DNA from: a virus | Length of the DNA: 23,846 nucleotides | Virus record (IMG/VR): IMGVR_UViG_3300006810_000385 | Coordinates: 1-23,846 of that record | Reading direction: 5' to 3' (one strand) | Shown here: one piece after another, positions 1,866 to 19,945 of the stretch | Numbering within the stretch: position 1 is the first letter of the stretch | Layout of the letters: every line of letters starts with the position of its first letter | Notes under the pieces: model-generated | The model's input: the letters and a program-made list of their open reading frames with translations, nothing else | What the model was told of the DNA's origin: nothing | Database searches by the model: none | Program-made: the position numbers and the translations under genes

Positions 1866-1866
1866 A

Positions 1867-3050: not shown

Positions 3051-3368
3051 TTATTTTATAATGTCTCTTAAAACACTAGTTAATTTTAATTCTTTAACTG
3101 CTTTTAAGGATGGTTTATCTTTAGTAACTACTGTTACTTTATTTTTAGTAGCTACATCTTTAATTTTAGAAGCTAAAGCAGCAGCTGAAGAGTCTTTAGT
3201 AGTGATATCAATAACTACTTTTCCTTCAACTCCGTCTTTAATATCTAATTTAGCATCAGAATAATCTTTTTTCCATTCTTTAGAAAATTTATCTTTTGCT
3301 TCTTTAGCTGATTCTTTAGCTTTATCTCCAGATAATACTAGTCTTTTATATGTTACTGGTAAACTCAT
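3051..3368 (-). CDS. Small lysine-rich protein, unknown
   Basis: A 105-aa protein, strongly Lys/Asp/Ala-rich, starting MSLPVTYKRLVLSGDKAKES. Helix (residues 14-35), strand (47-56, EGKVVIDITT), helix (59-74) and strand (75-82, NKVTVVTKD) alternate in a way that suggests a small alpha/beta fold. No catalytic motif is visible. Its start overlaps the TGA stop of the HAD-like gene in an ATGA arrangement, and its TAA is followed immediately by the ATG of the zinc-ribbon gene, so it is embedded in the coupled operon. The high lysine content would suit a protein packed with DNA in a phage head, but that is inference. No family recognised. Confidence 0.68.
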   Translation of the reverse strand: MSLPVTYKRLVLSGDKAKESAKEAKDKFSKEWKKDYSDAKLDIKDGVEGKVVIDITTKDSSAAALASKIKDVATKNKVTVVTKDKPSLKAVKELKLTSVLRDIIK

Positions 3369-3910
3369 AGTCCTATATTTTGTAATTGTTTAATTGTGTC
3401 TGCAGCACTAGTATGTAAAATACCAATACCACCTTGACTTCTCCATTGTTCTATATTATCTGGGCGATCATCGATAAGTATTTTATCTCTACCAGAGTAA
3501 TTTTGTTTTTTAGAAGCTCTCGCTAAAATAAGTTTAGTTCCTGGGATGTTATTTTTAACCCATAAACGTTTTCCTAAACGTGATTCATTTTCTCTTGAAG
3601 GAGCTGATAATAATGTTGGGTTATATTTTGAAATATAATCCCATAATTCTTTACCATCCTTCATCCATGGAATACCTACCCAAAACTTAACACCGTTTTC
3701 TTTATCAATAAAGTTCCAAAACTTTTCTGAACCGTATTTGGCATCATATTGAGTTGGTGATAATTTTTCAGGGTTTAGAGAAGTAAAACGCTTATCAAAG
3801 TCACAAAGTACGCCATCCATGTCACAATAGATTTTGTATCTTTGTTCTTCAGCTTGGTTTTCTTCCTCTTTAAGCTGCTTATATACATCAGTTAATTTTA
3901 ATTTATACAT
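3365..3910 (-). CDS. HAD-superfamily phosphatase, 5'(3')-nucleotidase-like, with N-terminal targeting-like peptide
   Basis: A 181-aa HAD hydrolase. Motif I is YKIYCDMDGVLCDF, with nucleophile D30 and acid/base D32; motif II is the serine in TLLSAPSRE (about S102); a lysine around K114-K119 is the likely third catalytic residue; motif III is KILIDDRPDNIEQW with D147/D148. The DxDGVLxDF signature and the W/F-rich cap (FWNFI, KFWVGIPWM) resemble 5'(3')-deoxyribonucleotidases, which dephosphorylate nucleoside monophosphates; the substrate here is inferred. The catalytic domain is preceded by an extra ~23 residues, MYKLKLTDVYKQLKEEENQA, ending in an L-K-E tripeptide (13-15) like a T4 prohead protease site. 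Plain nucleotidases do not need this extension, so the enzyme may be packaged. The start overlaps the end of the 1230-aa gene by eight bases; the stop overlaps the next start as ATGA. Confidence 0.82.
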   Translation of the reverse strand: MYKLKLTDVYKQLKEEENQAEEQRYKIYCDMDGVLCDFDKRFTSLNPEKLSPTQYDAKYGSEKFWNFIDKENGVKFWVGIPWMKDGKELWDYISKYNPTLLSAPSRENESRLGKRLWVKNNIPGTKLILARASKKQNYSGRDKILIDDRPDNIEQWRSQGGIGILHTSAADTIKQLQNIGL

Positions 3911-6900
3911 TTTTTATACTATCCTCCCAATTACGTAACATAATATTACTTTTTTCATATGCTTCTCTTTCTAATTCATCCAAATGACCATCTTCATTTG
4001 TATTAGTTGTATTTATATTTCCTAATGTACCTTCAAGGTTTTGATGGTGATGAACCATTTCGTGGGCGAAAGAACGTAATACGTCTTTTGGGTGCCTTCC
4101 AAAGGTGTAAAGAGTTATTGACTTTTCTACTGGGTTGTAATAAGCTGTTCTGCCCAAAAGACGAGACGCGTTTTCTTTATCGTCTGAAATAACCTTAATT
4201 TTAGGCAATGGGGTCACATTCATTCCATTGTCTTTCATAAATACAGCTAAAGATAAGAATGTTTCTTTGGGATTCCAAGCCTCTTCAAAAACTTCATTTA
4301 CAAAATCTTTTGCTAATTCATTTAAACCAAAAGGATCTGATTTTATTTCTGAGATAATTTCAGTTTCATATTCTCCTAAAGGGTTTTTTGCTATAACTTC
4401 ATATTCTGTTTTTACCAATTGGTCAAAATATTTCCCATTCCATATTTTTGTTTTTTTATAAAAAGTAGGAATAGATATAACAACATCTTGAACAGGAACT
4501 TCAACTAAATATGATACTAAATTATCATTATAATCTTTTTTATACCAATTAAGAATTTTTTTCACACCTTTATAATCATAAGCATATGAGGAATAAGGAG
4601 TTTTATCTAAATTAATTTTAGTTAATCCAGGTTCTGCTCTAATTATTCTAAACATAGTATTAGAAGGAACTTGTTTATATTCCTTAGGAATATTTAATTG
4701 TAATAATTTTTGTAAAGCAGATGATCTTTTTTCTTTATCATCTAAAGAAGATATAATCCAGTCTTGTAAAACAGAATTTATTTGTTTATCTAATTCTTGA
4801 TCGTTTTCCTTTATAAGTTTTACTTTATTTAAAATATCTTGGGGTAAAGCTTTTAATACCATTGAATAAACTTTTCCACGTTTTTCACTTGTTGGGTTAA
4901 TAATTAACTTATTTACTTCAAAGCGATTTGTAAAATCTTTAATAATATCAACAATAGTTTTAAGGATACTTAAAGCATTGCCTTCACCTGTCATTTGGAA
5001 GGTATCAAGTTTAGAACTATATTGGTCTATTCCAAAAGAAACATCAAATGTTTTAGCTTCTGGGTTGTATTCGCCTGAATGAAATTCAACTCTGTAATCA
5101 TTGTCAGGAGTAGAAAATTTATAGTCAACTGAAATTAAAGAATTATCTTCTTCATCATAGTTTTTGTCTGAAACTTTAAATTGGTAAATTTCTTTTATAG
5201 GAGCGAAACCTGAACCATAAGGTAAAGCTGTTCCTGCTTGTGGGTCAGCTGCTTCTTTCATTTTACGTAAGCGTTCTGTTTTCTTTTTAGATGCTTCTTT
5301 ACGTTTTTCAGCATAATCTAAAGCTGTTTTTAAACGTTTTTTAACCTCAGGATCTTTTGCTCTACCATAAGCTGCTCTTACTCGTTGATGTATTACATTA
5401 ATAATCTGAGATTGACGAGCATGAGACTTTGATTTAAATGAAGCTTTATTTAAAGTATCTATTATATCTTGTTTAGTTTTAAAAGATATACCTACAGTGT
5501 CTTTTGGGTCTTCATCTGTGTATAATCTACGACTAGAACCTTTAGGTTTTTTACCTGTGCCTTTAGCTGGTTCTTTTCCTTCATATAATGTATCATGTCC
5601 AGGAAGTAAAGCTACTATCATTGGTCCTTTTTGAATAATTTTTGCTCCTGGAATTGCTTTACTTATAAAAGCTCTATACAAATTATCTCTTTGATTACCT
5701 GTATCTTCTTCGCCTGATTTTTTAGAAGGAGCATATACAATACCTTGAGCCTCTGTTTGATTTAGATAATATTTTATAATATCTACAATAGTAGACATTA
5801 CTTTGAATAGTTCCCCTTTATTAATAGTTATTTTAGAAGACATACCTCCTCCAAAATTAGGATCTATTACACCAGCTGCAAATTCTACATCTAATACAGG
5901 AATAAATTTATAAACATTACGTTGTAATTGAACACTATATTCAACACCTTTATCAGTTTCAAAACTTACCTCAATACCTATATCATCATATTCCTCTTCA
6001 GTCCATTTATATGGTTGAAGATTTGCTTCACCTACTTCATTTAAAGGTAAAGATAAAGCTTTAGCTCTTTTTTTCCATAAGTCTAAAATATCTTCTCTAT
6101 CTTTTTTAGATACTCTAGCTTTATCAAAGTAATTATTAATTACATCTTTAAAAGGTGTTCTTGACTTTTTAGCTTTTAGGTACATACCTTGAAGCATAGC
6201 GTCTACTTCTTGTTCTAGTTTAAAGTATTCTGATTTTGGGAGGAATTTTAATTTAATAAGATTTCTTAACAATTGGTCATCAGCCATTTCTTTAGAATCA
6301 AACCTTGTTACTTCTTCTCCTTTTTTATTTTTGTAAGTAGTAGTAGAGGCAACAACATTAGGCCCTTGCTGAGTCATATGTTCTATTTCATGTCTAACAA
6401 CATCAATTAAATCCATGTAAATTTCTTCCCATTTTTGAGGTAAGTCTCTAGGATCTACTTGAAATTTAACTTCTAAATAAGGTAATTTTCTTGTAGGATC
6501 AGCTCCTCCATCTACTCTATAGATACCATATTTAGTTTTTCTAACTGTTAATACAGCATATAATTCAAATTTAATAGGTTGACCTTTAGAGTTAACAGTA
6601 TCATAATCTTCCTCTAACTCAAATTTACCTGTACCTCCATCATATTGAGACTTCCATTCATCCATTATGTCTCTAACAACTGTACTTGTTATAGTATCAT
6701 AACGACCTTCAAATACTAATTTAGGATTAGTTGTTTCAAAATCATCTTTTCGCATAATTGTTTTAGCAATTGCTTTATTAACTTTATTAAGAAAAGGAAT
6801 ATTTAAATCTGTTCTTTTATCTGTAGCTACAATTTCTTTAAACTTAGTAAAAAAGTCTATAAATTCTTCTTTCTTTTTACCTAAACGTTTAAAAAATCCT

Positions 6901-7595
6901 ATTAATTGAGCTAAAGTAACATCTGATTCTCTGTCAGTTAGTCTGTCTAATAAATGAGAAGAAGTTAAATCAATATCAATTCCTAATTGTTTATCAGCAT
7001 AAGTATCAGCTTGTTTTAACTCATCAGGTGTTACAGCTTCTTTTAAGTTTTTAACCATATCCCAAATTTGTTCTTTTTCTTCAACGTCTGGGATCATGTG
7101 AAGGAATTGTTCTTTATTATTATCGGCTATTGCTTTTCTAGTTTTAGTTCCACTAACACCACCTTTAGAGGTAATCACTTTAACCTCAAGGTTAGGGTAT
7201 TTACTAATGGATTTAGTTCGGTTAGCAATATCAGCTAAATCATCTTCATCACCTTCTCTAGCTCCTAAAACCCAATAAACTTTTTCTTCAGGATGTTCTT
7301 TAGCATATCCTAAAACAGATTTAACAGGGGCAATAGATGCCTCAACATCTACTTTATCAGAAAGATAATTTTTATAAATGTTCCAAATAGCTAAAGATTC
7401 TTCCTGTGTAATACCATCTCTAACTCCACTACCAACAAATATTTTTAATTCATTTATGTCAGGAAGTTCTTCTAAAGCTTGTTTAGCAACATTAAAGTGA
7501 CCTTTGGTTGGTGGTTTAAACCCACCCCCATAAATAGCCACTGTTTTTGTTTCATCTAACAGTTCTCCAATAAGGAATTTAGTTAGTTGATTCAT
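3903..7595 (-). CDS. 1230-aa multidomain protein: nucleotidylyltransferase, two zincin sites, duplicated domain, ART-like domain
   Basis: The gene has modules in this order. Residues 1-15: peptide MNQLTKFLIGELLDE ending in L-D-E, like a T4 capsid-targeting sequence. About 16-185: nucleotidylyltransferase (IYGGGFKPPTKGHF with the T-x-GH motif at 30-33, and SGTKTRKA at 149-155, equivalent to ISSTxxR). About 195-300: helical region. About 300-520: zincin-like domain, HEIEH at 402-406 with E461 or E463 as possible third ligand. About 538-665 and 805-928: two copies of one unknown domain. About 675-780: very basic domain (KPKGSSRRLYTDE onward). About 978-1068: possible ADP-ribosyltransferase (FRIIRA, PYSSYAYD, TEYEVIA). 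About 1095-1230: second zincin, HEMVH at 1178-1182 with a downstream ELEREAY. (L/I)xE tripeptides lie at junctions: 184-186, 518-520, 670-672, 800-802, 928-930, 1091-1093. This resembles a packaged polyprotein, a role like T4 Alt. Nucleotidylyltransferase and zincin calls are good; ART is moderate; processing is inference. Confidence 0.85.
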   Translation of the reverse strand: MNQLTKFLIGELLDETKTVAIYGGGFKPPTKGHFNVAKQALEELPDINELKIFVGSGVRDGITQEESLAIWNIYKNYLSDKVDVEASIAPVKSVLGYAKEHPEEKVYWVLGAREGDEDDLADIANRTKSISKYPNLEVKVITSKGGVSGTKTRKAIADNNKEQFLHMIPDVEEKEQIWDMVKNLKEAVTPDELKQADTYADKQLGIDIDLTSSHLLDRLTDRESDVTLAQLIGFFKRLGKKKEEFIDFFTKFKEIVATDKRTDLNIPFLNKVNKAIAKTIMRKDDFETTNPKLVFEGRYDTITSTVVRDIMDEWKSQYDGGTGKFELEEDYDTVNSKGQPIKFELYAVLTVRKTKYGIYRVDGGADPTRKLPYLEVKFQVDPRDLPQKWEEIYMDLIDVVRHEIEHMTQQGPNVVASTTTYKNKKGEEVTRFDSKEMADDQLLRNLIKLKFLPKSEYFKLEQEVDAMLQGMYLKAKKSRTPFKDVINNYFDKARVSKKDREDILDLWKKRAKALSLPLNEVGEANLQPYKWTEEEYDDIGIEVSFETDKGVEYSVQLQRNVYKFIPVLDVEFAAGVIDPNFGGGMSSKITINKGELFKVMSTIVDIIKYYLNQTEAQGIVYAPSKKSGEEDTGNQRDNLYRAFISKAIPGAKIIQKGPMIVALLPGHDTLYEGKEPAKGTGKKPKGSSRRLYTDEDPKDTVGISFKTKQDIIDTLNKASFKSKSHARQSQIINVIHQRVRAAYGRAKDPEVKKRLKTALDYAEKRKEASKKKTERLRKMKEAADPQAGTALPYGSGFAPIKEIYQFKVSDKNYDEEDNSLISVDYKFSTPDNDYRVEFHSGEYNPEAKTFDVSFGIDQYSSKLDTFQMTGEGNALSILKTIVDIIKDFTNRFEVNKLIINPTSEKRGKVYSMVLKALPQDILNKVKLIKENDQELDKQINSVLQDWIISSLDDKEKRSSALQKLLQLNIPKEYKQVPSNTMFRIIRAEPGLTKINLDKTPYSSYAYDYKGVKKILNWYKKDYNDNLVSYLVEVPVQDVVISIPTFYKKTKIWNGKYFDQLVKTEYEVIAKNPLGEYETEIISEIKSDPFGLNELAKDFVNEVFEEAWNPKETFLSLAVFMKDNGMNVTPLPKIKVISDDKENASRLLGRTAYYNPVEKSITLYTFGRHPKDVLRSFAHEMVHHHQNLEGTLGNINTTNTNEDGHLDELEREAYEKSNIMLRNWEDSIKNV
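4821..5984 (-). repeat. Internal duplication of an unknown domain inside the 1230-aa protein
   Basis: Two protein-level copies, residues about 538-665 (DNA 5601-5984) and 818-925 (4821-5144), flank the basic domain. Each has a beta-rich half followed by STIVDIIKYYLNQ versus LKTIVDIIKDFTNR, then a strand (AQGIVYAPS versus VNKLIINPT), then a charged turn and a helix (NLYRAFISKAIPGA versus KVYSMVLKALPQD). The strand-helix order and the R-x-x-Y turn recall a GNAT-like fold, but no acetyl-CoA loop is evident, so I do not assign a reaction. The coordinates span both copies and the spacer. Confidence 0.6.
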
Positions 7596-7991
7596 TTATT
7601 TTAAAGCTTTAACTTTTTCAGCAGCTGATTTTCTTTTTTCCTCGATGGATTTTTTAGCTTCACGAAATTCATTCATAGCATCTTCCATTTCTTTAAGCTG
7701 GTCTTGAAATGCTTTTAAAGCTTCAGTACCTACTCTACGAGCATCAGATTTTTGTTTGTAAACACCTAAAATATCTTCAATTTTTAATCCACCTTTAACT
7801 TGAAGAGCAAACATTGGAAGGTCACATTCCCATACAACATCTTCTATTTCTGAATTTTGTTTTGGTTTTTCAACTACAAAGAATTTACCTACTTCATCTA
7901 CTGGAATTTTTTCAGCTTCGGTAATTGGGGATGTTTCTTTAACTGCTTTTTCAGCTTCTTCTACTTCATTTAATAAGTCTAATAATTTCAT
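7596..7991 (-). CDS. Coiled-coil protein with targeting-like peptide, 131 aa
   Basis: The protein starts MKLLDLLNEVEEAEKAVKE. L-N-E at residues 7-9 fits the (L/I)xE prohead-protease signature, and I-T-E follows at 23-25 (SPITEAEKIP). The middle (35-80) is beta-rich: KFFVVEKP, then VVWECDLPMFALQVKGGLK. The C-terminal 45 residues form a long charged helix with coiled-coil character (KAFQDQLKEMEDAMNEFREA through EKRKSAAEKVKALK). Its start overlaps the TGA of the kinase gene (ATGA), and its TAA is followed directly by the ATG of the 1230-aa gene. Size, acidity and coiled coil would suit an internal head or core protein. No named family is recognised, and no catalytic residues are evident. Confidence 0.72.
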   Translation of the reverse strand: MKLLDLLNEVEEAEKAVKETSPITEAEKIPVDEVGKFFVVEKPKQNSEIEDVVWECDLPMFALQVKGGLKIEDILGVYKQKSDARRVGTEALKAFQDQLKEMEDAMNEFREAKKSIEEKRKSAAEKVKALK

Positions 7992-8791
7992 TTGTTTATA
8001 AAGTTAGTGATTTTTTGTTGTGCTTGTTCTTTTGAGACTGAATTGTCTATAATATTTTTTATTTTATCAGAGTTTAAAAACTCTTCCATTTGTTGGTTTA
8101 ATTCCTTATTTAATTTTTCTGCTTTAGCCTGTTCTTTTTCTGTTTTAGGTTTAGCGTCTGTTGGTTTATATGGGTCAATATATTTTTGTAGAATTTTTTC
8201 TACATCTTTCATTGTCTCACTTTTACCTGTATTGGCTACAGAAACAAAATTATCTCCAAACAATTGTTTATATTCATCAAAGTTTTTATAAACTTGTAAC
8301 CAAGTTCTGTAAACAGCAGATGGCATTAAACTTCTATCTTCACCTCCTGATTTTTCAAAGTGCTTTTCATTTCTGTCTAGAGCCGTTTCTAAATCAGTGT
8401 AAACATAAAGCATCATAACATCGTAACCATTGTCTTTTAATTGATTATATAAGTTTATAGTTTGTTTAGATGAGGCTGAAGTGCCGTCTAGTATGAATGA
8501 ATTTTTATTAGCTATAGTATTAGGAATGTCTTCGTCTTTAAGCTTTTTAGTAGCCGCAGCCATAGCTTTCATAAAAGCACTCCTATTTTCAGCATCTGTA
8601 GCTTTTTGGTTTAAAGTAAAACCATCAGCCTTTGATAAAGCTGCTATAGTATCGTCTAAATTTAATGTTTTAAGTCCAGATAAGTCTAAGTCACCTGTTA
8701 TTGACCCTTTGCCTGCCCCTGGAGAGCCTGCCAAAATTATTGCTTTTGGATTTCCTTGCATTTCTATCAATAAAGATACCAGTCCAATCAT
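7988..8791 (-). CDS. P-loop kinase, Zeta-toxin/polynucleotide-kinase-like
   Basis: A 267-aa P-loop kinase. The Walker A motif is GSPGAGKGS (22-30) after the strand KAIILA; LNLDD (43-47) is the likely substrate/Mg site; FILDGTSAS (99-107) is the Walker-B-like strand; DVMMLYVYTDLETALDRNE carries arginine R140, and R162 lies in VYRTWLQV, both candidate lid arginines. The order matches Zeta-toxin-type and related small kinases that phosphorylate nucleotides, sugar nucleotides or polynucleotide ends; the substrate cannot be decided. Residues 205-267 are a Lys/Glu-rich helical tail. The kinase fold is preceded by only MIGLVSLLIEMQGNP, in which L-I-E (8-10) fits a prohead-protease site, so it may be packaged. 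It is the first gene after a terminator-promoter boundary and appears to lead the operon running leftward. The ATG has no Shine-Dalgarno sequence. Confidence 0.8.
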   Translation of the reverse strand: MIGLVSLLIEMQGNPKAIILAGSPGAGKGSITGDLDLSGLKTLNLDDTIAALSKADGFTLNQKATDAENRSAFMKAMAAATKKLKDEDIPNTIANKNSFILDGTSASSKQTINLYNQLKDNGYDVMMLYVYTDLETALDRNEKHFEKSGGEDRSLMPSAVYRTWLQVYKNFDEYKQLFGDNFVSVANTGKSETMKDVEKILQKYIDPYKPTDAKPKTEKEQAKAEKLNKELNQQMEEFLNSDKIKNIIDNSVSKEQAQQKITNFINK

Positions 8792-8803
8792 AGATAGGGT
8801 TTG

Positions 8804-8818
8804 TCATAAATATTATAA
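8804..8818 (-). promoter_or_regulatory. Candidate promoter upstream of kinase operon
   Basis: On the minus strand this reads TTATAATATTTATGA, ending 12 bases before the ATG of the kinase gene. The identical 15 bases occur at 9238-9252, 13 bases before the next upstream gene's ATG. It contains TATAAT. It sits immediately after an intrinsic terminator, where a new transcript would be needed. The strand assignment is inferred from position: the complement contains CATAAATA, similar to the T4 late consensus TATAAATA but facing the wrong way for these genes. Confidence 0.45.
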
Positions 8819-8841
8819 AAAAGGCTTGGATAACCAAGCCC
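8815..8841 (-). terminator. Intrinsic terminator for the minus-strand transcript
   Basis: On the minus strand there is a perfect 7-bp stem GGCTTGG / CCAAGCC (8834-8840 with 8823-8829) with a TTAT loop, followed directly by TTTTTTATAATA. It is the only clear stem-loop plus T-tract I saw in the window. It lies about 30 bases beyond the final TAA of the readthrough frame at 8871, so it ends the transcript carrying the replication enzymes and separates it from the kinase operon. Confidence 0.82.
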
Positions 8842-8870
8842 TTTCTTTTAATATTTTTTAAGAATTTTTA

Positions 8871-9011
8871 TTAACCAAGTGGGTTAGGAACATCTGTGTA
8901 TTTGGTATCAATCCATATTTGTTTACTTTGACCTTTATCGCCATCACCTCTCCAAAATTTAACTTCAAATGGGATGTTTTTCTTTTGTAAAAGATTATTT
9001 AAATATCTTCA
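8871..9011 (-). other. In-frame continuation of coding sequence beyond a TGA
   Basis: After the TGA at 9009-9011 the same frame continues for 45 sense codons to a TAA at 8871-8873. The translation looks like real protein, not random AT-rich sequence: RYLNNLLQKKNIPFEVKF, then WRGDGDKGQSKQIWIDTKY, ending VPNPLG. The junction would read RLPKAD-x-RYLNNLL, where TGG (Trp) in place of TGA would restore one 117-residue protein. The frame then ends just before the terminator, as expected for the true gene end. Possible explanations are a point nonsense mutation, a base error in the assembly, or stop-codon readthrough. Confidence 0.7.
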
Positions 9012-9224
9012 ATCTGCTTTGGGTAATCTATATTGTCTTTCAATATAAAAAAGGTGATGTTCAGGATTAACAAAATTTATTTCAAATCCTTTATTTTCTA
9101 AAGTATCAAAATCGTCTTGAGTTAAAACAGATCCATCTTCTTCGTTTAATACTTCCATCATTTTTTTAGCTTGACCTTCAGTGATAATACCTGCTAATTG
9201 ACTCATTCTTATAATGTCTTTCAT
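9009..9224 (-). CDS. Small protein with targeting-like peptide, interrupted by TGA
   Basis: A 71-aa frame starting MKDIIRMSQLAGIITEGQ, in which I-T-E (14-16) matches the (L/I)xE prohead protease signature; L-N-E occurs again at residues 26-28 (VLNEEDGS). The remainder is a small alpha/beta unit: LTQDDFDTLENKGFEINFV, then HHLFYIERQYRLPKAD, where the frame stops at TGA. The coding sense clearly continues beyond that stop (separate entry), so the intended product is probably about 117 aa and this is its first 60%. The start is chosen at the first ATG, 22 bases after the stop of the PD-(D/E)XK gene, in an A-rich leader (ATCAATAAAATG) without Shine-Dalgarno. A repeated promoter-like motif lies just upstream. 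Function unknown. Confidence 0.7.
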   Translation of the reverse strand: MKDIIRMSQLAGIITEGQAKKMMEVLNEEDGSVLTQDDFDTLENKGFEINFVNPEHHLFYIERQYRLPKAD

Positions 9225-9237
9225 TTTATTGATTTTA

Positions 9238-9252
9238 TCATAAATATTATAA
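9238..9252 (-). promoter_or_regulatory. Second copy of the promoter-like 15-mer
   Basis: The minus strand again reads TTATAATATTTATGA, identical to 8804-8818, ending 13 bases before the ATG at 9224. It overlaps the TAA stop of the PD-(D/E)XK nuclease gene. The same sequence at nearly the same distance from two successive starts argues for function. Promoter (TATAAT core) is the simplest reading, but a translation-leader element is possible. Confidence 0.45.
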
Positions 9253-10020
9253 CTTTCTTTTTACTTGAGTTTTAAACTCAGTAAATATTGGAGAATGCTT
9301 GGGGTTTTCTAAATCAAATAATTTTTTAACTGTTTTAAAGATATCTAGATTTTCTTCTTGGGTGCGAGATGACTCATACATTTCCCATCCTTTGCCTTGC
9401 ATTTTACCACTTGCGCCCTTACGCTTAGAAGATTTTAACCAAAGAATACCATAACGGTCAGGTACTTTACCATAACATTCTTCATAACACTTACCATAAA
9501 CAGCAGTTTGTAAATCATAAGTTGTTTGTAAATTATTAGATGTTTTAAAGTCTACAATCCAAAGTTGACCATCAATTTCACAAACCATATCACATGTACC
9601 TGCTACCTTAAGCTCGTCTGAAAATAAATGTACCTCAGTCTCAATTAATGTTGGGTTATATTCTTCCCACCAATCAACAAAACGTAAAAACATTTGCCAT
9701 ACATCCGGGTGATATAATGGACCACCATGAGGACCTAAAAAGTTTAATTCTTCTCCATTAAGGAAAGCCTCAATCATTTCATGTACTTGAGTACCTTCTT
9801 CACCTGCTTTTTTAACAATATATTCAGATGAATAACCTACTTTTTTTAACCAGTCTTCAAAGAATTTTCCTTTGGGGTAATATGATAAAACATAAGTTAC
9901 TGAAGGATAATACTCTCCGTTACGTCTATAGTAACGTGAGTCTGGCATAGTGATTTGTTTCGCATCTTCAGAAATTTGTAATATTCTATCGTAAGATTTT
10001 TTAATGTTTTTTTTACTCAT
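9247..10020 (-). CDS. PD-(D/E)XK nuclease, RecB/Cas4-like
   Basis: A 257-aa nuclease of the RecB/Cas4-type PD-(D/E)XK superfamily. Visible elements: GTQVHEMIEAFLNGEE with H80/E81 (motif I helix); ETEVHLFSDELKVAGTCDMV with D144 (the catalytic aspartate); LWIVDFKTS with D157 and K159 (the D/E-x-K); and LQTAVYGKCYEECYGKVPD carrying the QxxxY-type motif (Q171, Y175). The usual four-cysteine iron-sulphur ligands of Cas4/AddB are not obvious. Such enzymes are Mg-dependent DNA exonucleases or endonucleases used in phage recombination, replication or genome processing. It follows the primase gene with an ATGA overlap, consistent with a replication/recombination role and coupled translation. Confidence 0.83.
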   Translation of the reverse strand: MSKKNIKKSYDRILQISEDAKQITMPDSRYYRRNGEYYPSVTYVLSYYPKGKFFEDWLKKVGYSSEYIVKKAGEEGTQVHEMIEAFLNGEELNFLGPHGGPLYHPDVWQMFLRFVDWWEEYNPTLIETEVHLFSDELKVAGTCDMVCEIDGQLWIVDFKTSNNLQTTYDLQTAVYGKCYEECYGKVPDRYGILWLKSSKRKGASGKMQGKGWEMYESSRTQEENLDIFKTVKKLFDLENPKHSPIFTEFKTQVKRKL

Positions 10021-10946
10021 AAAAATAGTTTTTTTCCCATTAACTCAGAGAATGTTAAGGGATAAGTTTCTTGAATTAATTTAGTAAAGTTTTCAAAACC
10101 CATTTCACTTGGATCTTTATCTTTCATATCTACTAAATAAACTTCTTTTCCTTCATTTAATAAACGCTCACAGAATTGTAAAGCTTGTTTTTGAGCGTCT
10201 TTATCAAGGGCAATATATATTTTATCTACAGAAGACATTACTATCTTCTTCATTAATTTTGTTTGAATATTTTTTCCTAAAAGCGGGACTACATTTCTTT
10301 TGATAGATATAGCGTCAAATGGTCCTTCGCATAATATAAGTGGTATATTCCAGTTTATAAACAACTCAAATGGTATGATGTCGCGCGAGACAGATGGATT
10401 CTTATATTTTAAAGTAGAGTTTTTATCAAAGTTTCTAGCAGTAAAATAATTTAGTTTTCCTTCAGCATCATATGATGGAATAACAATCATTTTTTTATAA
10501 GGGCCTGAAGTGCAATATCCAATATTATATTTTAAAATATCTTCTTCTGTTATTCCTCTAGACTTTAGATAAGCTAAAGCATGTCTTCCTTCAATATCTG
10601 ATTTAGGAATGTCTTTAAATGCTTTAAATTCTTTAGGTAAAGTTAACTTATTAACAGTCTCAACTATTTTTTCAGGACCTGTATATTTTACAATAGAGTT
10701 TAACTCTGTTATTTTATCAGGATGAGCTTCAACTGCCTTAAATAATTGATATACTTTTTTACCTTTTTTATCACACACCCAACAATGCCAAGGATTTTCT
10801 CCTTTAGCATTTTCTTTCATATTGACTTCTAACTTAGGCTTATGGTGATTACAAAAAGGACAATGGTAAGCATAGTTACCACTTGCTGTTTGTTTGCCTG
10901 TTCCTAGGACAGAGTTAACTAATGCAATCAAAGGCTGATTGAGCAT
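10017..10946 (-). CDS. DNA primase (zinc ribbon + TOPRIM)
   Basis: A 309-aa primase that would make RNA primers at the replication fork. The zinc ribbon is HCPFCNHHKPKLEVN (C29, C32) with HCWVCDKKGK (C55, C58), as in DnaG/T4 gp61-type enzymes. A linker containing GRHALAYLKSRGITEEDIL leads to the catalytic core: MIVIPSYDAEGKLNYFTAR, then the TOPRIM domain with IPLILCEGPFDAISI (E207) and KIYIALDKDA (D248, D250), with a further acidic cluster VDMKDKDPSE. The length is close to T4 gp61 (about 340 aa), so this is a complete, compact primase. No helicase domain is fused to it. It overlaps the downstream nuclease by four bases (ATGA). Start at the first ATG in the leader TATTAAGACTATG. Confidence 0.87.
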   Translation of the reverse strand: MLNQPLIALVNSVLGTGKQTASGNYAYHCPFCNHHKPKLEVNMKENAKGENPWHCWVCDKKGKKVYQLFKAVEAHPDKITELNSIVKYTGPEKIVETVNKLTLPKEFKAFKDIPKSDIEGRHALAYLKSRGITEEDILKYNIGYCTSGPYKKMIVIPSYDAEGKLNYFTARNFDKNSTLKYKNPSVSRDIIPFELFINWNIPLILCEGPFDAISIKRNVVPLLGKNIQTKLMKKIVMSSVDKIYIALDKDAQKQALQFCERLLNEGKEVYLVDMKDKDPSEMGFENFTKLIQETYPLTFSELMGKKLFL

Positions 10947-10969
10947 AGTCTTAATATAATAAGAGATAA

Positions 10970-11446
10970 TTAAGAAGCAAAGTCTTTGGTGAAAAACTTT
11001 CCTAAAATATTATCATTAAAATATCCTTCTGGGTGTTCTAACACACCATATTTAAATAAAAACTTACATTCATAGTAAGTTAAAAGTTTTTTATTAGGAA
11101 CCAATTGTAAAATTTCACGGGTAAATTCCTCTTGTTTACCATCCTTTATGTATTCTAAAATTGGTTTAGCAGAGCCATAATAGGTTTTCCAGTCTGATTC
11201 TTTTGTTACTACTTTTGTAGCTGATTTTCTACCTGGGCCTGTTTGTTCTGCTAGTTCCTTTTTTGTTAGTTTTTTCTTTACGTTATGGTAAAGAACTTTT
11301 TTACCAAGGTAACATATTCCTGTAGGTCTATGAGTTACAATGTAAATAAAACCATAAGTATCTTCTGGGAAATCTTCAATTGTAAGATATTCTTTTTTTA
11401 TTTTTGTTCCCCAATCTGTTTCTGTTTTTGAAAACCAATTATTCAT
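10970..11446 (-). CDS. GIY-YIG-like endonuclease
   Basis: A 158-aa protein with a GIY-YIG-type opening: YGFIYIVTHRPTGICYLGKK, where GFIY (32-35) stands for GIY and YLG (46-48) for YIG. A Lys-rich insertion follows (VLYHNVKKKLTKKELAEQTG). The segment ESDWKTYYGSAKPI, then FTREILQLV, then LLTYYECKFLFKYGVLE provides the later conserved Arg (R110) and Glu (E126), and the tail has FNDNILGKFF. These residues fit Mg-dependent single-domain phage nucleases of this superfamily. Homing is possible, but no DNA-binding repeat domain follows and the gene sits in a normal slot between the tail genes and the primase, so a resident phage function is as likely. It lies five bases after the second tail paralog and 23 bases before the primase. 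Confidence 0.68.
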   Translation of the reverse strand: MNNWFSKTETDWGTKIKKEYLTIEDFPEDTYGFIYIVTHRPTGICYLGKKVLYHNVKKKLTKKELAEQTGPGRKSATKVVTKESDWKTYYGSAKPILEYIKDGKQEEFTREILQLVPNKKLLTYYECKFLFKYGVLEHPEGYFNDNILGKFFTKDFAS

Positions 11447-11451
11447 AAAAT

Positions 11452-12474
11452 TTATCTATCCATGTTTATAAGGATTGTTGTGTCTGTAGTTGGACTTGTA
11501 AGTAATGGTTGAGATAATTTACCAACTGCTAATAAGTTTTGATCATTATCATATAAACCTACTGTTGTAATATAAGGACTAAAATCAGATCCTGTAGCCC
11601 AACTATTTAAATATTGTCCAGGAGTATAGAATGTACCTATTGAACTTGAATAAGGTACACTGCCTGAAGAAACAGATGGGTTTAAAGTGAAATTATACTC
11701 ATTTTCATTAATAGTACATTTATATTGAGTTTCATAAATAGTTAATGAAGATGAGAATGAACAAGTTACATTAGAAGATGTTACAAAATTTTCAACTATA
11801 ACAGAATCTGATACTCCATAAAGAGATGAACCATATCTAGCTGTTCCATAAGTATCTCCTTGGGGTGATGAATCACTAGTAATTACTGCTATACCGTGGC
11901 TATAAAATATATTACCACATATTTGTCCTGTACTAGTAAAGATTAAATTACCTTCTCCATCATCGGTTATAGAACCACTAGGAGCAATCCAAGAAAAAGA
12001 ATTAGGTTGAATATAATTTCCAAACACTCCTGTTGGTATAGATATAACACCTATGGTTGAATCAGAACCTGTTGGAAAATATTTTTGGAAAGTTATATCT
12101 GTTTGTAAATAATTATAATATCTACCTTGAGAAGAAGTAGGTCCTACTATAACATCTCCTTCAACATCATATCCAGGTATTAAACTAGAGGTAGTAGGTT
12201 GGGCTCCAAAACTACTTGTAGTATTTAAGTAGTTAGAGTAATAAAGTAATTTTATAGACTCATAAACCAATTGTTGGTCTTGAGGAGTTATCTGACCCGT
12301 AGTAGGATTTGATCCTGATAGGAAAGGGATTAAATTTATATTTTTTCCTAAATAACGATCAATACCAACAGTAGAACCAGTTAAAGCAGCCGCCCCTTCA
12401 AAGGAGAATCTCTTGTTAACCTCAAATGGTGTAACAATTATATCTGACGCTAGAAACTGTTTGTACGCGCTCAT
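11452..12474 (-). CDS. Tail-associated structural protein, paralog B
   Basis: A 340-aa Ser/Thr/Gly-rich, beta-type protein typical of phage tail or baseplate appendage proteins, with many (S/T)GS tripeptides. The last ~55 residues hold YITTVGLYDNDQNLLAVGKL followed by SQPL, which matches the same position in the adjacent upstream gene (YITTVGMYNDNNELLAVAKL, SRPL). The N-terminus SDIIVTPFEVNKRFSFEGAA also parallels DDFVISADSVVAPMWSTGNA of the neighbour. This indicates a tandem duplication followed by divergence in the middle. It is the last gene of the structural block, just ahead of the GIY-YIG-like gene. Structural role is inferred from composition and context; no enzyme motif is visible. 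Confidence 0.65.
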   Translation of the reverse strand: MSAYKQFLASDIIVTPFEVNKRFSFEGAAALTGSTVGIDRYLGKNINLIPFLSGSNPTTGQITPQDQQLVYESIKLLYYSNYLNTTSSFGAQPTTSSLIPGYDVEGDVIVGPTSSQGRYYNYLQTDITFQKYFPTGSDSTIGVISIPTGVFGNYIQPNSFSWIAPSGSITDDGEGNLIFTSTGQICGNIFYSHGIAVITSDSSPQGDTYGTARYGSSLYGVSDSVIVENFVTSSNVTCSFSSSLTIYETQYKCTINENEYNFTLNPSVSSGSVPYSSSIGTFYTPGQYLNSWATGSDFSPYITTVGLYDNDQNLLAVGKLSQPLLTSPTTDTTILINMDR

Positions 12475-12479
12475 TCATT

Positions 12480-13544
12480 TTAGAAATCTAACTTAACTCT
12501 AATCAAAGCTTCTTTTGTAAAGTCTTTAGTTAAAGGTCTAGAAAGTTTAGCAACTGCTAATAATTCGTTATTGTCATTATACATTCCTACAGTTGTTATA
12601 TAAGTAACAGGATTATTAATAAATGAACTATATAATACTTCACCTGTTGAACCTGATATAAAACTTGGGTTTTCTGAATAGTTAAACTCTGAACTTCTTG
12701 GTCTTACAAAGATATAATCAGCAGTAATAGTTTCATCTGAATTAATAGTGAAACTAGCAGCTCCTGCTGAACCTGAAATAGCTTTATACATAGAAGACAT
12801 AGGAGTAATTCCTGGTAAGGCTGAACCTGTACCTGCGTTTCCTGAATCTGTTGAACCACTATATCCAAAAGCAATACCTCCACTAATAGCTGGTTGAGCT
12901 AAGGCTGTTGAGTTTAATAGAATAGTTCCAATGTCTGGTAAGAACCAACCATATGAACCTGACTTAGCAGAATAACCATCTGAAGTAGTTCCATCGTTGG
13001 TTATTTTAGTACCTGCTGAACCAGAAATTAATTGGTATACTCTTCCTGCTTCATTAAAAGTTTCAGCTACAATATATTGACTATTGTCTGTTAAAGATAT
13101 ATTTCCAGCACTTCCTGAAATTTTTAAGGTTAATGAACCTGGGAGTAATGATTCTTTATATCTAGCTCTTTCAAAAGTAATAGCGTGGAATTGGGATTGG
13201 GTAACATTACCAAATACAAAGTCTGTATTTTCATCTCCAATTACTAAGTTTTGGTATTGACCATAAACAGTAGATGAAGGTGATTTTCCATCAACTGCTA
13301 AGTTATATACTCTACTACCGCTACCATATTTGTTACCATAAGCAATTCCAAATTGAACTGCTGAACCTGATAAATCAGATCCTGTTTGGTATACATTTAG
13401 ATAAAAATCTCCAGAGGCACCAGCTTCTTGTACTGAAGAAGAGTAAAATTGAGTTAACTCAGCATTACCTGTTGACCACATTGGGGCAACAACAGAGTCA
13501 GCACTTATTACGAAATCATCAGCTTCTAATCTTTTAAATGACAT
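12480..13544 (-). CDS. Tail-associated structural protein, paralog A
   Basis: A 354-aa protein related to the next gene downstream, with an N-terminal LEADDFVISADSVVAPMWST, a long middle of beta-strands with SGSAG and TGSALPG turns, and a C-terminal domain ITTVGMYNDNNELLAVAKLS ending in RPLTKDFTKEALIRVKLDF. Low charge, high Ser/Gly and alternating strands are normal for fibrous or decorative virion proteins. It starts at ATG in TATAGAATATGTC, with no Shine-Dalgarno, ten bases after the 213-aa gene, and is followed after five bases by its paralog. Exact location in the virion is unknown; baseplate or tail-fibre periphery is the best inference given gp25/gp6-type genes in the same block. Confidence 0.66.
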   Translation of the reverse strand: MSFKRLEADDFVISADSVVAPMWSTGNAELTQFYSSSVQEAGASGDFYLNVYQTGSDLSGSAVQFGIAYGNKYGSGSRVYNLAVDGKSPSSTVYGQYQNLVIGDENTDFVFGNVTQSQFHAITFERARYKESLLPGSLTLKISGSAGNISLTDNSQYIVAETFNEAGRVYQLISGSAGTKITNDGTTSDGYSAKSGSYGWFLPDIGTILLNSTALAQPAISGGIAFGYSGSTDSGNAGTGSALPGITPMSSMYKAISGSAGAASFTINSDETITADYIFVRPRSSEFNYSENPSFISGSTGEVLYSSFINNPVTYITTVGMYNDNNELLAVAKLSRPLTKDFTKEALIRVKLDF

Positions 13545-13554
13545 ATTCTATATA

Positions 13555-14196
13555 TTAAGATACTTTATTTACTTGAACAGGAATAGTTACTCTAGCTCCA
13601 CTATCTCTACCTACAATTGTTAATGTAGTATACAAAGTAGTAGTTGTAGTTCCAAATAATGTATTAACAGTAGTACCTCTTAAACTTAAAGTTGTACCAA
13701 TTACTGTCTTAGATACATTAGTTCCAACAGTTGTTGTTTGGTTAAGAGCAGCAGCTTGATCTGTGTTAATACCTACACCTTCAAAAGTTGACATTAATCT
13801 AGCATCAGCAATTGTAAAGGTATATCCTGAACTTTCTTTTCTGCTAAAGTAGTTAGCTGTTTCAGGATCAATAACTTGTGATTGACCTTGTTTAATATTA
13901 ACAATTGATACTGTTTCAAGAATTGGCATTTTAGCTGTACCACGAGGTAAAGTAGTTAATTTATACTTCATCACTTGAGTTTCTTGAGGGAATGCTTCTA
14001 ACAAAGGCATATTTTGAATTGCCTCACCATAGAAAGCAGAACCTGAAGGGTGTGTTGGATTGTAAAGAGTATAATCAATTTCATCATCAGCTAAGGCAAA
14101 TTGTGTAATATTAAAATTACCTTGAGCTAATAATTCTCTTCCTTTTGTAGTTAAAATAGCATCAACTGTTACTACTGAATTATTTAAATATCCCAT
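13555..14196 (-). CDS. Tail/baseplate-type structural protein, 213 aa
   Basis: The protein opens MGYLNNSVVTVDAILTTKGR followed by ELLAQGNFNITQFALADDEI. In general pattern this recalls small conserved proteins of contractile-tailed phage structural clusters, in which a short N-terminal strand-helix unit (ILTxxGRxLLAxG, then FALADDEIDY) is followed by beta sandwich sequence. The C-terminal half is Thr-rich (TTVGTNVSKTVIGTTLSLRG, then TTTTTLYTTLTIVGRDSG). No enzymatic motif. It starts 44 bases after the preceding stop, the longest gap in the structural block, with a promoter-like motif in that gap. Exact function is not recognised. Confidence 0.65.
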   Translation of the reverse strand: MGYLNNSVVTVDAILTTKGRELLAQGNFNITQFALADDEIDYTLYNPTHPSGSAFYGEAIQNMPLLEAFPQETQVMKYKLTTLPRGTAKMPILETVSIVNIKQGQSQVIDPETANYFSRKESSGYTFTIADARLMSTFEGVGINTDQAAALNQTTTVGTNVSKTVIGTTLSLRGTTVNTLFGTTTTTLYTTLTIVGRDSGARVTIPVQVNKVS

Positions 14197-14211
14197 TATT
14201 GTGTAGTTTTA

Positions 14212-14226
14212 TTATAAATATATTAA
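14212..14226 (-). promoter_or_regulatory. Third, variant copy of the promoter-like motif
   Basis: The minus strand reads TTAATATATTTATAA, resembling TTATAATATTTATGA at 8804 and 9238. It ends 15 bases before the ATG at 14196, close to the 12-13 bases of the other two. It sits in the longest gap of the structural block (14197-14240). The complement holds an exact TATAAATA (14213-14220), the T4 late consensus, but facing rightward, antisense to all genes. Confidence 0.35.
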
Positions 14227-14240
14227 TTTTTTGTTTTTTA

Positions 14241-16988
14241 TTATATTAGATTATTAGTTTGGTATTGATTAATTATATTATCTAAATTATCTTTTAATTT
14301 TTGGGTTGGATAAAGAGGTAATATTAAACCGGGTCCTACTAAAGTGTTACCTGATTCAATAATTAAATTATCTGAGCTAAATGCCCATCTTCTAATAGAG
14401 AAATAATCTAAATTAATTGAAATATTAGAGGCAATAGGACTATTTAAATATAAATAAAGAATACTATTTATACCATCATATTCAACAGAATTAATAACAT
14501 ATACTTTTGATTCATCTCCTTCAAACCTTATTTCATCTAAAGGATTAATTACAAAAGGTTGAGGATTGCCAAATCCACTAGATGTATTATTTGATGTGAG
14601 CTCTTCTTGTTGAAAAAAACCACCATAAAAATAAGACATATCAGCTGAGGCTGTTAATATGTATTGACTATTAGATCCTGTAGTAAAATAATAAGAACCA
14701 ATATCAATAGAATAATTACTATTAGAACCTGTAAATGGGTTAACTTCATAATTATTAAAATCATATCTATCTAGATCGTTAGAAAGTGAATTTAATGTCA
14801 CGTAAAAAGTGTCTCCTGGAGATAAATAAATACTGGAAGATATACCATGTTGGTTATTTATAGAACCTGTATCTGAGGTTTTAGACGCACTAGCTATTTC
14901 AGTACCATTTTTATAAATTTTTAAAACTACATCTGCAGTATCTGGAGGTCCAACACCAGGATCATTTACATCATAACTCATTGACGCTGTTATAGAACCT
15001 CTTAAAGGAGTATAACCTTGAGGATATATATAAAGTCCAGTAGATGCGGTTAAAGCATTAGCTTGATTAATAGTAGGGGTATTAAAACTAGCTGTTGTTT
15101 CTGTATTTTTTGGTAAGTTATACTCATAAGGTCCAATTGCTTTAGCTTTTATAGATGTATTTACTCCAGGAGCTAAACTCATAGAAATATTATCATAATA
15201 ACCATTAACTAAATAATTTTGACCTACAGAACCTGTGTCTGAATGAAGAATATTCTGGGAGTTTACTAAAGGTTTATATATAGAATAAGATTGGGTAGCA
15301 TTAAGAAAATTAGAACTACTTATATTACTAAGTACAACTTGGTCATTTGTACTAAAATTATTATATATTACTGTTGAATAAACATTTCCTTCTGTTGTAT
15401 TAGGCTTATATACTTTTCCATCTTCATCAGCTACAAATCCTATCCTATAATTTCCACTACCTGATAACTCTGCTAATGTTCCTCCTCTTCCTCCTGGGGT
15501 GTATATAAAATAAGGGATTGTTTGTTCAACATTTGGAAGTTGACCTATTCCACTACCTGTGATAGGTATTTGGTTAAATCCAGGTGATGTAGATCTACTA
15601 CCAAAATATCTTGGGTTCGCACTTCTAGCCATAGTATAATTAGAATCAGGAACAGTAGCTTTTGTAGCGCTTCCACTTAATAACACCTGTTGATTAACTG
15701 GAATTGTTGTGCCTTGGGAGTAATCAACATCAAATAAGTTTACACTTGGTCTATAAGTGTCTACAAAATTAATTATAGGATCATTATTTATATCTTCAGG
15801 GAGTGCTTCAAATACTGTAAAATTACTTAAATTAATAGGATCAACAGTTGCACCACCAATAATATTTAAAAGATATACTTTAGGATTCATTCCTTTAACC
15901 TCAAATTTATCAATAACTTGTGGACTAGTAGTTAAAGTTATTAAACCTATATCTTCATAATATGGAGATGTGGATTTCTCTGTAACTCCATTAGCAAATG
16001 TTCTATTTGAATTTACTACAGCAAGTTTAGCATTAGGATTTCCTGTGGCTGTAAAACTTAAATAATATGTTTTATCTTCTTCAAAATTATAATCAATTAA
16101 ATTAGCGGCACTTGCTGTTACTCTAGGCCATCCCTTATATACACCAGGAGCAAAGAATGGTGCAGGATAAGTATATGCTACAGGTAGTAAAGGAGTTTGA
16201 AATACTTCAACAAAATTAATAGTATTGTTTGATAGGTTTCCATCTGTAACAACATATTCAGATCCTTTTAACTCACCATTAAATTCATATTCATTAGTAT
16301 AATATTTTTCAACTGAACCTGAAGGTGTTTGGGTTGTTTCTGAGAATCCATTTATAGAAGAGGCTGTAACACTTGTAATTGTTATATCAGCTGAGCTTGA
16401 GTAATTATCATTAGCTATTAAAAGATACCCTGATTTGAAGTCATAATTAAAGTTAAAGGTTTCTTCATAATAACCACTTAATAAAGAGGAAGTAACAATA
16501 GTAGTTGTATTTCTTAAAAAGTAACTAGAAGGTAAACTAGCACTATCATATACTTTTAAAGCGGTAGTAGCAGGAGATCCTCCGCCATATGAGGAAGACA
16601 TAGCAAAACTTACGTTATGAAGTCCTGATTGTGATAAAAATATTCTACCAACTTGTCCTGGTTCTATTAAGAAAGAAGCTGAAGTAGCTATAGTAGGAAC
16701 ATAATCTATAAAAGCACCACCATTTGATCCTATGGTTTCTTCTATTTCAATAGAACCTGTTAATGTTAAATCTTGATATACTCCTGGTTCATTCCATCCT
16801 GAATTGCTTCCTGAAAAAGAAGTAGTTGTTTGAGTATCTAACTGAGGTACAGGATATTTATTTCTTTCTAATAAATGTTGTTTAATAACAATACCTGTAC
16901 TTAATCCTGCTCTTGCTGGTGTATAGTCTTTAAGAATTTTAAATAATGAGTTATCATAATATTTAATTAATCTTATAAATCCCACCAA
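14241..16988 (-). CDS. C-terminal part of a giant tail/baseplate protein (frame-shifted)
   Basis: An open frame of 915 codons whose only upstream start in frame is a TTG directly after a TGA; no ATG lies near the real beginning of homology. Its first residues, GFIRLIKYYDNSLFKILKDY then TPARAGLSTG and VIKQHLLERNKYPVP, read like the middle of a protein, not an N-terminus. They join naturally to the end of the upstream gene if one base is re-read (see the frameshift entry). The rest is beta-rich and Ser/Thr/Asn-rich with many SGS turns, as in tail fibre or baseplate proteins. It ends with a helix, LYPTQKLKDNLDNIINQYQT. Most likely residues 990-1901 of one protein; independent translation from TTG is less likely. 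Confidence 0.68.
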   Translation of the reverse strand: MVGFIRLIKYYDNSLFKILKDYTPARAGLSTGIVIKQHLLERNKYPVPQLDTQTTTSFSGSNSGWNEPGVYQDLTLTGSIEIEETIGSNGGAFIDYVPTIATSASFLIEPGQVGRIFLSQSGLHNVSFAMSSSYGGGSPATTALKVYDSASLPSSYFLRNTTTIVTSSLLSGYYEETFNFNYDFKSGYLLIANDNYSSSADITITSVTASSINGFSETTQTPSGSVEKYYTNEYEFNGELKGSEYVVTDGNLSNNTINFVEVFQTPLLPVAYTYPAPFFAPGVYKGWPRVTASAANLIDYNFEEDKTYYLSFTATGNPNAKLAVVNSNRTFANGVTEKSTSPYYEDIGLITLTTSPQVIDKFEVKGMNPKVYLLNIIGGATVDPINLSNFTVFEALPEDINNDPIINFVDTYRPSVNLFDVDYSQGTTIPVNQQVLLSGSATKATVPDSNYTMARSANPRYFGSRSTSPGFNQIPITGSGIGQLPNVEQTIPYFIYTPGGRGGTLAELSGSGNYRIGFVADEDGKVYKPNTTEGNVYSTVIYNNFSTNDQVVLSNISSSNFLNATQSYSIYKPLVNSQNILHSDTGSVGQNYLVNGYYDNISMSLAPGVNTSIKAKAIGPYEYNLPKNTETTASFNTPTINQANALTASTGLYIYPQGYTPLRGSITASMSYDVNDPGVGPPDTADVVLKIYKNGTEIASASKTSDTGSINNQHGISSSIYLSPGDTFYVTLNSLSNDLDRYDFNNYEVNPFTGSNSNYSIDIGSYYFTTGSNSQYILTASADMSYFYGGFFQQEELTSNNTSSGFGNPQPFVINPLDEIRFEGDESKVYVINSVEYDGINSILYLYLNSPIASNISINLDYFSIRRWAFSSDNLIIESGNTLVGPGLILPLYPTQKLKDNLDNIINQYQTNNLI
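16973..16988 (-). other. -1 frameshift junction with slippery-like GGATTTA
   Basis: In the upstream frame the sequence is TGG GAT TTA TAA. The heptamer G-GAT-TTA (16982-16976) is followed at once by the stop. Re-reading the last T of GAT gives GAT TTT ATA AGA, i.e. NYDWWD-FIRLIKYYDN, and opens the next 912 codons. GGATTTA resembles the GGAUUUU heptamer used by some plant RNA viruses for -1 frameshifting, with UUA able to slip to UUU. The same effect would come from one missing T in GATTT(T)ATAAG, so an assembly error or deletion is a strong alternative. No strong downstream stem-loop is evident. Confidence 0.6.
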
Positions 16989-19945
16989 TCATAATTTGCT
17001 TTATATTTTTCAAAGTATGCTTCTCTTAAAATATCTAACTCAGGGTATGACTCAGATGATGAAGATACTTGTCTTGGATCACCAATATATTCTCCAATAT
17101 TAAAGTAACCTAAAGTTGAATTAATATCTTCATTTATTTCATTTTGAGGTGAAAATGCTATCTCAACATAGTTTGTATCCGCTGTATAACTTCCACTTAT
17201 AGATTCATTTTGTTGAATAGAAATAAAAAGTGACAATACATCAGCATTAGGAACATTAGCTTCACTTCCTGTATAAGGTAGTAAAGTATTTTTAGTCCTT
17301 ATTTTATTAGAAATAGGAGTTTGTATACCTGCTGGTACTTGATCAAAATAAATATGTTCTTTATTAGTGACATATTCATTACTACCACTTATATAAAAAG
17401 TGCTATTAGAAGCAAATGATGAAGTAGCTACCCAAGAACCAGTTACTTTAGGGTGAACAGAAGTTGATCCTGTATATAATTCACCTCCTAAAGTTGCTCT
17501 AAATGCTAAATAATCTGATCCTTCTATTGAGTAGGGATTCATTACATAAGCATCAAAATGACTCTTAGATAAAGCAACAGTGTAATATCTTATTTCTTGG
17601 AATGAACCTGTAAATATTTTAGAAGAAAGTGATGAAGATCCAAAATAAGAAGTTGTAGCATCTACCCAATGGTTTGAGTCTGAAGAAGTTAATGATGAAG
17701 ATGCTTGGAAATATATAGTATTACTACTTTCTCCTATATACTCTTTATTAGCGGCATATAAATCATAATATTCTAAGGTAGAGTTTTTAGTTAATAAAAC
17801 TGACCACCATCCACCATCATAGAATGGTAAATAAATACTAGCTGATTCATTAGGGTAAGCTGAAATATCAGGGATATATTCTAATAAAGCGTATTGATAA
17901 TAAGGATCTACTGGGTCAGCACTACTTGAAATCAAAGATGAAGTAGTATATCCTGAGCCTGTATATCTTAATCTAATTATATCTCCTGTATCTAAGGACC
18001 ATAAGCTTTCAGTAACAATACTAGCTGTGTTTTGAGGTAAACCATCAGTTTTAAATCTAAATTCTACAGCTTGAGGTACATCATCAACAGCGTTCCAATT
18101 AGTGTTTAATTCCCAACTTGAAGATATATAAGAAGAACCACTAGTATAAAAAGCATAATTAAATTCATTCTGCCAGTTATCCCATGTTTCAAAATTTTTG
18201 TCTTTACCTCCAAACTCATTAATTCTTAAAATAGTATCAGGAATACCAAACAAGGTAATTAAGGCTCTTAAACCTTCTACTGTACCTTTCTTTTTAAGAA
18301 TGTATGGTAAGTTATGGTATAATCTTTTATATGTTAATTTATTAACATCATCTAAAGTAATAGGAATATAAGAAGCACTAACAAAAGTATTAATTACTTC
18401 ACTTCCTGTAGGGTATAATTGACCATCTGCTCCTACACCTAATAATGATGGGTAAGTATTGTCTACTGAAAAATTATTAGTGTATATATTAACACCAAAT
18501 GATCTTAAAATATCAGCTATTATACCTGAAGGGGCACCATAGTCTAGACGGTTATCTGTGTTTGTTTTATCACTTATACTTTTGATATACACCCAAATGT
18601 TATCAAAAGATTGACCAGCCATTTTAACAAAAGTTAAATATTGGTCACTATCATAATCTTGTAAATAATCAGGAATTGAGTTTGTTAGTATATCTTGGTT
18701 ATCATCATCATATAGAGATGCTGAGTATAATTGACCCCCATAATAGGGAGCTCCATAAACATCAGTACCGTACCAATTTAAAACAGCAGCACTTCCTGTT
18801 GATGCTAAAGTGTAAGGTGGTTCTGAATTAGTTTTAGGCCAGGCTTTACTTCCAGACTCAAAATATAAATAATATTCATAACCATCAAAGTTAGTTATGA
18901 TGTCTGAAATATATTTTTGTAGGATTACTAAACTTCCACTTGAACTAGATGTTTGAGTTAAAGCATCTAAAGCAGCTATTTCATTATTGTAATCCTCAAT
19001 TTGTTTTGCTTTAGTATAAAAGTTTTGTAATCTAGATTTAGCGGAAGAGAAAAATACAAAATTAGAATAATCAGTATAATCTATATTAATTTCTACTCCT
19101 CTTTCTTCTAGTAAACTTTGTAATTGGTTTAAAGAACTTGTACTAACAGTACTTGTTAAAGTATTATAGTTTTGATAAGTTGTAGAGTTATTAACTAATG
19201 AGTTAATATTTAAATTAGTATTTGGTCCTTGTAAACTAACAATATCATCAACAGGACCAAAATCTTGAGTAAAACTTATATCATAAGCTATAGGGTCAGC
19301 AGCATTAGAACTTACATAACAAGTAGTTTTTAAATTATACCTGTTAGGTAAAGGCTGGTATAGTTTAATTAAAATACTATAATCTGCAGAACTTTTATCT
19401 AAATAAACATTAGTAGCTATTACAACATTACCACTACCAAAATTTAAATAGAAGTAATCATAAGTAGCATCTAAATTAAATTGAGCGTAAAATTCATCAT
19501 ATAAAATTTCTAAACTTTCATTAGAAATATTAGTATTATCTATTCTAATTTCTGTTCTATTAGATGAAATTTCACTTATATAATATCTGTTAGCATCAGA
19601 TGATCCTAACTCATTATTATAAAAAGCATAAGTAGTATAAACCTGACCTGTATCATAACCAGCATTAATAACATCATTTGCTGGGTTAATATCAATAGTA
19701 CTTAAGGTATTGTCTTGAACATTGTTTCCTAAACCTGTTGAAGACCAATTATTATAAGAAGAATTATAATATAAAAGATTATTATTTAAATCATAAACAC
19801 CAAATTCAACACTGCTACCTGATGTGGATATAAACCCTGTTTCTTCTGTGGAACCAATTAAACCACTATCTTCTCCTGACAAAGTAGGATAAGAAGGTAC
19901 TACTAAAGTGTATGGTATTTGATTTATAGTATAATTTTCAGCCAT
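16973..19945 (-). CDS. N-terminal part of a giant tail/baseplate protein with LamG-like domain
   Basis: A 990-aa structural protein. Residues 1-280 are beta-rich. About 290-345 is a helical/coiled stretch (LQSLLEERGVEINIDYTDYS, then KAKQIEDYNNEIAALDALTQ). About 540-585 holds YKRLYHNLPYILKKKGTVEG and LRALITLFGIPDTILRINEF, a tract reminiscent of the gpI/wedge-type connectors of contractile-tail baseplates. About 620-805 resembles a laminin-G/concanavalin-like sandwich (VEFRFKTDGLPQ, GGWWSVLL, FTGSFQEIRYYTVALSKSHF), often used for glycan contact. It ends ELDILREAYFEKYKANYDWW plus two residues at a TAA, immediately inside the next open frame. The evidence for a single ~1901-residue protein is given under the frameshift. 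It starts in TTTATAATGGCT, overlapping the preceding TAA. Confidence 0.75.
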   Translation of the reverse strand: MAENYTINQIPYTLVVPSYPTLSGEDSGLIGSTEETGFISTSGSSVEFGVYDLNNNLLYYNSSYNNWSSTGLGNNVQDNTLSTIDINPANDVINAGYDTGQVYTTYAFYNNELGSSDANRYYISEISSNRTEIRIDNTNISNESLEILYDEFYAQFNLDATYDYFYLNFGSGNVVIATNVYLDKSSADYSILIKLYQPLPNRYNLKTTCYVSSNAADPIAYDISFTQDFGPVDDIVSLQGPNTNLNINSLVNNSTTYQNYNTLTSTVSTSSLNQLQSLLEERGVEINIDYTDYSNFVFFSSAKSRLQNFYTKAKQIEDYNNEIAALDALTQTSSSSGSLVILQKYISDIITNFDGYEYYLYFESGSKAWPKTNSEPPYTLASTGSAAVLNWYGTDVYGAPYYGGQLYSASLYDDDNQDILTNSIPDYLQDYDSDQYLTFVKMAGQSFDNIWVYIKSISDKTNTDNRLDYGAPSGIIADILRSFGVNIYTNNFSVDNTYPSLLGVGADGQLYPTGSEVINTFVSASYIPITLDDVNKLTYKRLYHNLPYILKKKGTVEGLRALITLFGIPDTILRINEFGGKDKNFETWDNWQNEFNYAFYTSGSSYISSSWELNTNWNAVDDVPQAVEFRFKTDGLPQNTASIVTESLWSLDTGDIIRLRYTGSGYTTSSLISSSADPVDPYYQYALLEYIPDISAYPNESASIYLPFYDGGWWSVLLTKNSTLEYYDLYAANKEYIGESSNTIYFQASSSLTSSDSNHWVDATTSYFGSSSLSSKIFTGSFQEIRYYTVALSKSHFDAYVMNPYSIEGSDYLAFRATLGGELYTGSTSVHPKVTGSWVATSSFASNSTFYISGSNEYVTNKEHIYFDQVPAGIQTPISNKIRTKNTLLPYTGSEANVPNADVLSLFISIQQNESISGSYTADTNYVEIAFSPQNEINEDINSTLGYFNIGEYIGDPRQVSSSSESYPELDILREAYFEKYKANYDWWDL

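Follow-up and report, generated by a model that had tools for sequence, protein, structure and literature searches.

A private one-base deletion, rather than programmed frameshifting, very probably splits a long structural gene in a viral contig

Two large overlapping frames in a virus record

Two large open frames overlap on the minus strand of a viral contig, and the question that they raise is whether programmed -1 frameshifting makes a short and a long protein from them or whether they are the pieces of one gene whose frame has been broken. The stretch analyzed here (the window) is a virus record of 23,846 bases with its main genes on the minus strand. An ATG-started frame of 990 codons (16973-19945, minus strand), which appears to be the 5' part of a long tail or baseplate-region structural gene, ends in ..KANYDWWDL at a TAA (16973-16975). 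This stop lies within a 915-codon frame (14241-16988, minus strand), the apparent 3' part of the same gene, which opens with TTG GTG GGA TTT ATA straight after a TGA and overlaps the first frame in the -1 register. In relatives the two parts are fused and the TAA is out of frame; only in the window contig is the 3' part out of frame. Directly before the TAA stands GGATTTA (16976-16982, minus strand), whose T-run reads as AAA at 16977-16979 on the plus strand. A -1 join at this motif gives ..NYDWWD-FIRLIKYYDN.., with 989 residues from the first frame and the 912 codons past the join from the second. When we recomputed the open reading frames, the arrangement described in an earlier note on this DNA proved right in its coordinates, its join and its 1,901-residue product, as did its remark that the second frame lacks a plausible start, the possible starts being TTG and GTG only (16988-16983).

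The frame is unbroken in every relative found

Searched with the opening of the 915-codon frame, IMG/VR yielded 31 loci, which carry 22 distinct junction protein sequences. The frame was open across the join, with zero stops, in all 31, and in nearly all of them similarity to the 915-codon frame began at residue 3 to 4, which is the site of the join. Because the relatives encode the same sequence across this point, the -1 join is not a chance juxtaposition. The split seen in the window, which conserved programmed frameshifting would lead one to expect in relatives too, is absent from all 31. The earlier note had proposed this alignment as a test in which a single frame in related phages would signify an indel, and a single frame is what we found throughout.

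The closest relative narrows the difference to one base. Locus L001, whose full record is L038 (IMGVR_UViG_3300007640_000511), is about 99.9% identical to the window over 16.9 kb (446-17355); the two differ by 22 substitutions and one indel. It has the same genes in the overlap, but its long gene is one open frame, and the sole indel, at 16980, leaves the window's T-run one base shorter. We also searched the whole collection for this site with a pattern that tolerates up to two additional bases; it matched three contigs, all of which equal the window plus one base over 47 bases. The window's shorter form was found in none of these three pattern-matched contigs, in a collection from which the window's own record may be absent.

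That the frame runs unbroken through the join in a near-identical phage, as in all the other relatives found, argues for an error or a chance mutation and against programmed frameshifting. As far as sequence comparison can tell, the split is very probably a private one-base deletion in one continuous gene, whether it arose as an error or as a mutation in the lineage. One continuous gene of about 1,901 codons would then specify a large structural protein in a T4-like phage, one with a contractile tail, and the loss of one base from a short T-run, private to this contig, would break the frame, with no recoding involved. Of the two explanations offered by the earlier note, the one in which a T is missing through mutation or assembly error is thus borne out by the single frame in the near-identical contig and in all the other relatives. 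The other, in which a programmed shift sets the ratio of short to long tail protein, fails, since no relative has the split.

Features of the putative shift site

Programmed -1 frameshifting at G-GAT-TTA would produce the 990-residue short form and the 1,901-residue long form in a fixed ratio, and the geometry fits, with a 0-frame stop directly 3' of the heptamer and a smooth join. The likeness to the viral heptamer GGAUUUU, on which the earlier note relied, holds in part: the heptamers are similar, and the site G_GAU_UUU of pea enation mosaic virus, a real shift site (PMC5009743, PMC4737148), also has a nearby stop. That site, however, belongs to an RNA virus, has tested cis elements and carries UUU as its A-site codon, whereas the window's motif stems from the one-base difference and is simply the local codons minus one base. 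GGAUUUU lets the A site re-pair fully in the -1 frame (PMC4737148). This full re-pairing is lost in GGAUUUA because its A-site codon is UUA, and the motif fits X XXY YYZ only loosely (XXX = GGA).

Nor does the surrounding sequence single out this site. Strict in-frame X XXY YYZ heptamers are plentiful in the AT-rich window (75 in minus-strand open reading frames), GGATTTA itself occurs a second time in frame at 6414, and the slippery motif is within chance expectation. We found no unusual stimulatory structure downstream of GGATTTA: the predicted fold is unremarkable, and 44 of 200 shuffled sequences fold at least as well (z = -0.75, pseudoknots excluded). The join falls not at a domain boundary but where the protein is most conserved, in a block with invariant R, IKY and DNSLF (motif DFIRLIKYYDNSLFK), and the short product would stop within that motif (..WDFIRLIKYYDNSLFK..). 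A shift is also unneeded in 31 of 31 relatives, including the one that is about 99.9% identical, all of which have a single frame. On the grounds of that single frame, the folding and the motif frequency, we rejected programmed -1 frameshifting, which we consider highly improbable here. A candidate tail-protein recoding site vanishes on comparison with a near-identical contig, and a false annotation is thereby averted; where a frame break is seen in a single metagenome contig, a relative should be compared before recoding is proposed.

The two frames as separate genes

The frames might instead be two translationally coupled genes, the second starting within the end of the first at the TTG or GTG noted above. 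A true division of the long gene into two, each with its own ATG, does exist in some relatives, but at other points: in L024 it lies about 204 codons upstream of the window's join, and in L007 and L016 it lies 189 to 232 codons downstream. At the window's own join no relative is split, the start of the second frame has no ATG, and no obvious ribosome-binding site was seen before the TTG/GTG. The protein is conserved right up to the join, and its residues there run on into those downstream, which counts against coupled genes. Given the single frame in relatives and this conservation across the join, we rejected coupled genes with a TTG/GTG start as very unlikely.

The divisions in other relatives have features of their own. 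In L024 (2887-8397), as in L023, L025 and L026, an 818-codon open reading frame is followed by a 45-base gap and then by an ATG-started 1,002-codon open reading frame in the same frame. The gap holds an AT hairpin with AATGAT repeats on either side and, as read by eye, lies within a LamG-like stretch. We considered a translational bypass like that of T4 gene 60. The frame that it would require does not match the register of the AATGAT direct repeats, and the gap folds unremarkably (z = -0.35). We therefore favor ordinary gene fission, and this division is likely a real one. In L007 (3055-9180) and L016 (2827-8943), a shorter long gene (1,214 and 1,247 codons, respectively) is followed within about 13 bases by an ATG-started open reading frame (822 and 786 codons); these are apparently natural division points.

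Identity of the long gene

Upstream of the long gene in the direction of transcription lie a 138-residue gene, a gp6-like baseplate wedge gene (phrog_219, phrog_10646) and genes of 405 and 121 residues; downstream lie genes of 213, 354 and 340 residues. The neighbors correspond one for one in L002, where the order is 400-120-1899-215-354-340 residues against 405-121-(990+915)-213-354-340 in the window, and a single 1,899-codon gene stands in place of the 990- and 915-codon frames. In Flavobacterium phage vB_FspM_immuto_2-6A, gp109 (YP_010114574.1) is similar to both frames and occupies the same place in the gene order, although it is a single 1,265-codon coding sequence, unlike the split gene of the window. 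The order there is baseplate assembly protein, baseplate wedge, proteins of about 370 and 112 residues and then the 1,265-codon coding sequence, and by homology to both halves, together with its conserved place after the gp6-like wedge, the window's gene fits the gp109 family of immuto-like Flavobacterium phages. Microcystis phage Mel-JY01, like immuto an isolated phage, also has one coding sequence, of 1,336 codons, which covers the first frame as far as residue 987 and extends past it. From the gene order shared with immuto, after the baseplate wedge, we infer that the long gene encodes a large structural protein of the tail or baseplate region.

Scans of both halves against Pfam, PHROGs and PDB sequences returned no family that identifies them. 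AlphaFold modeled the junction region too poorly for use (pLDDT 33), and a model of the N-terminal part (pLDDT 55 overall) had no match in the PDB at an E value of 0.001 or below; its strong viral matches were uncharacterized phage proteins of 756 to 1,287 residues only. The long gene thus represents a large, poorly characterized family of structural proteins with no usable Pfam, PHROGs or PDB match.

Error or mutation

The missing base could be an error of sequencing or assembly, or the virus that was sampled may truly carry the shorter T-run. In the latter case, a genuine frameshift mutation would be present in the phage population; the product would be lost unless low-level "compensatory" slippage restored part of it, and frameshifting that compensates for indels is a recognized class (PMC5009743). 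Such a mutation should be strongly harmful, however, with the C-terminal half lost from a gene that is continuous here in all relatives, and the window's other private differences look like unselected errors. We regard an error as the most likely source, holding somewhat over half of the probability, while a genuine mutation is a possibility of real but lesser weight, at roughly a third. That the shorter run is real in a living lineage kept viable by -1 slippage at GGATTTA, as an incipient recoding site, seems scarcely credible. Counting against an error is the length of the run, since three or four T's are few for a typical indel error.

The private differences bear on this choice. Two of those in the window are apparently damaging: at 9009 a stop codon replaces the Trp of L038, and at 17229, 249 bases from the indel, there is a Leu where L038 and L002 to L004 have Pro. 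Outside 9682-10440, almost all differences between the window and L038 alter the protein. This pattern would fit unselected errors or segregating harmful mutations but is suggestive only, because some of the private changes sit in the other contig: L038 has its own, for example, at 10768, 13749 and 13752.

The stop at 9009, a second lesion private to the window contig, ends a 71-residue open reading frame (9009-9224, minus strand), where L038 has one of 117 residues. Within 9682-10440, thirteen clustered substitutions relative to L038 are all synonymous, and few differences lie in the remainder of the 16.9 kb; judged by its substitutions, the cluster resembles a recombination tract. Over 10170-11380 the identity of L002 reaches 97%, against about 84% alongside. 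At about 5440 in L023, a private one-base gap relative to L024 to L026 breaks the start of the second open reading frame, a contig-private lesion like that of the window.
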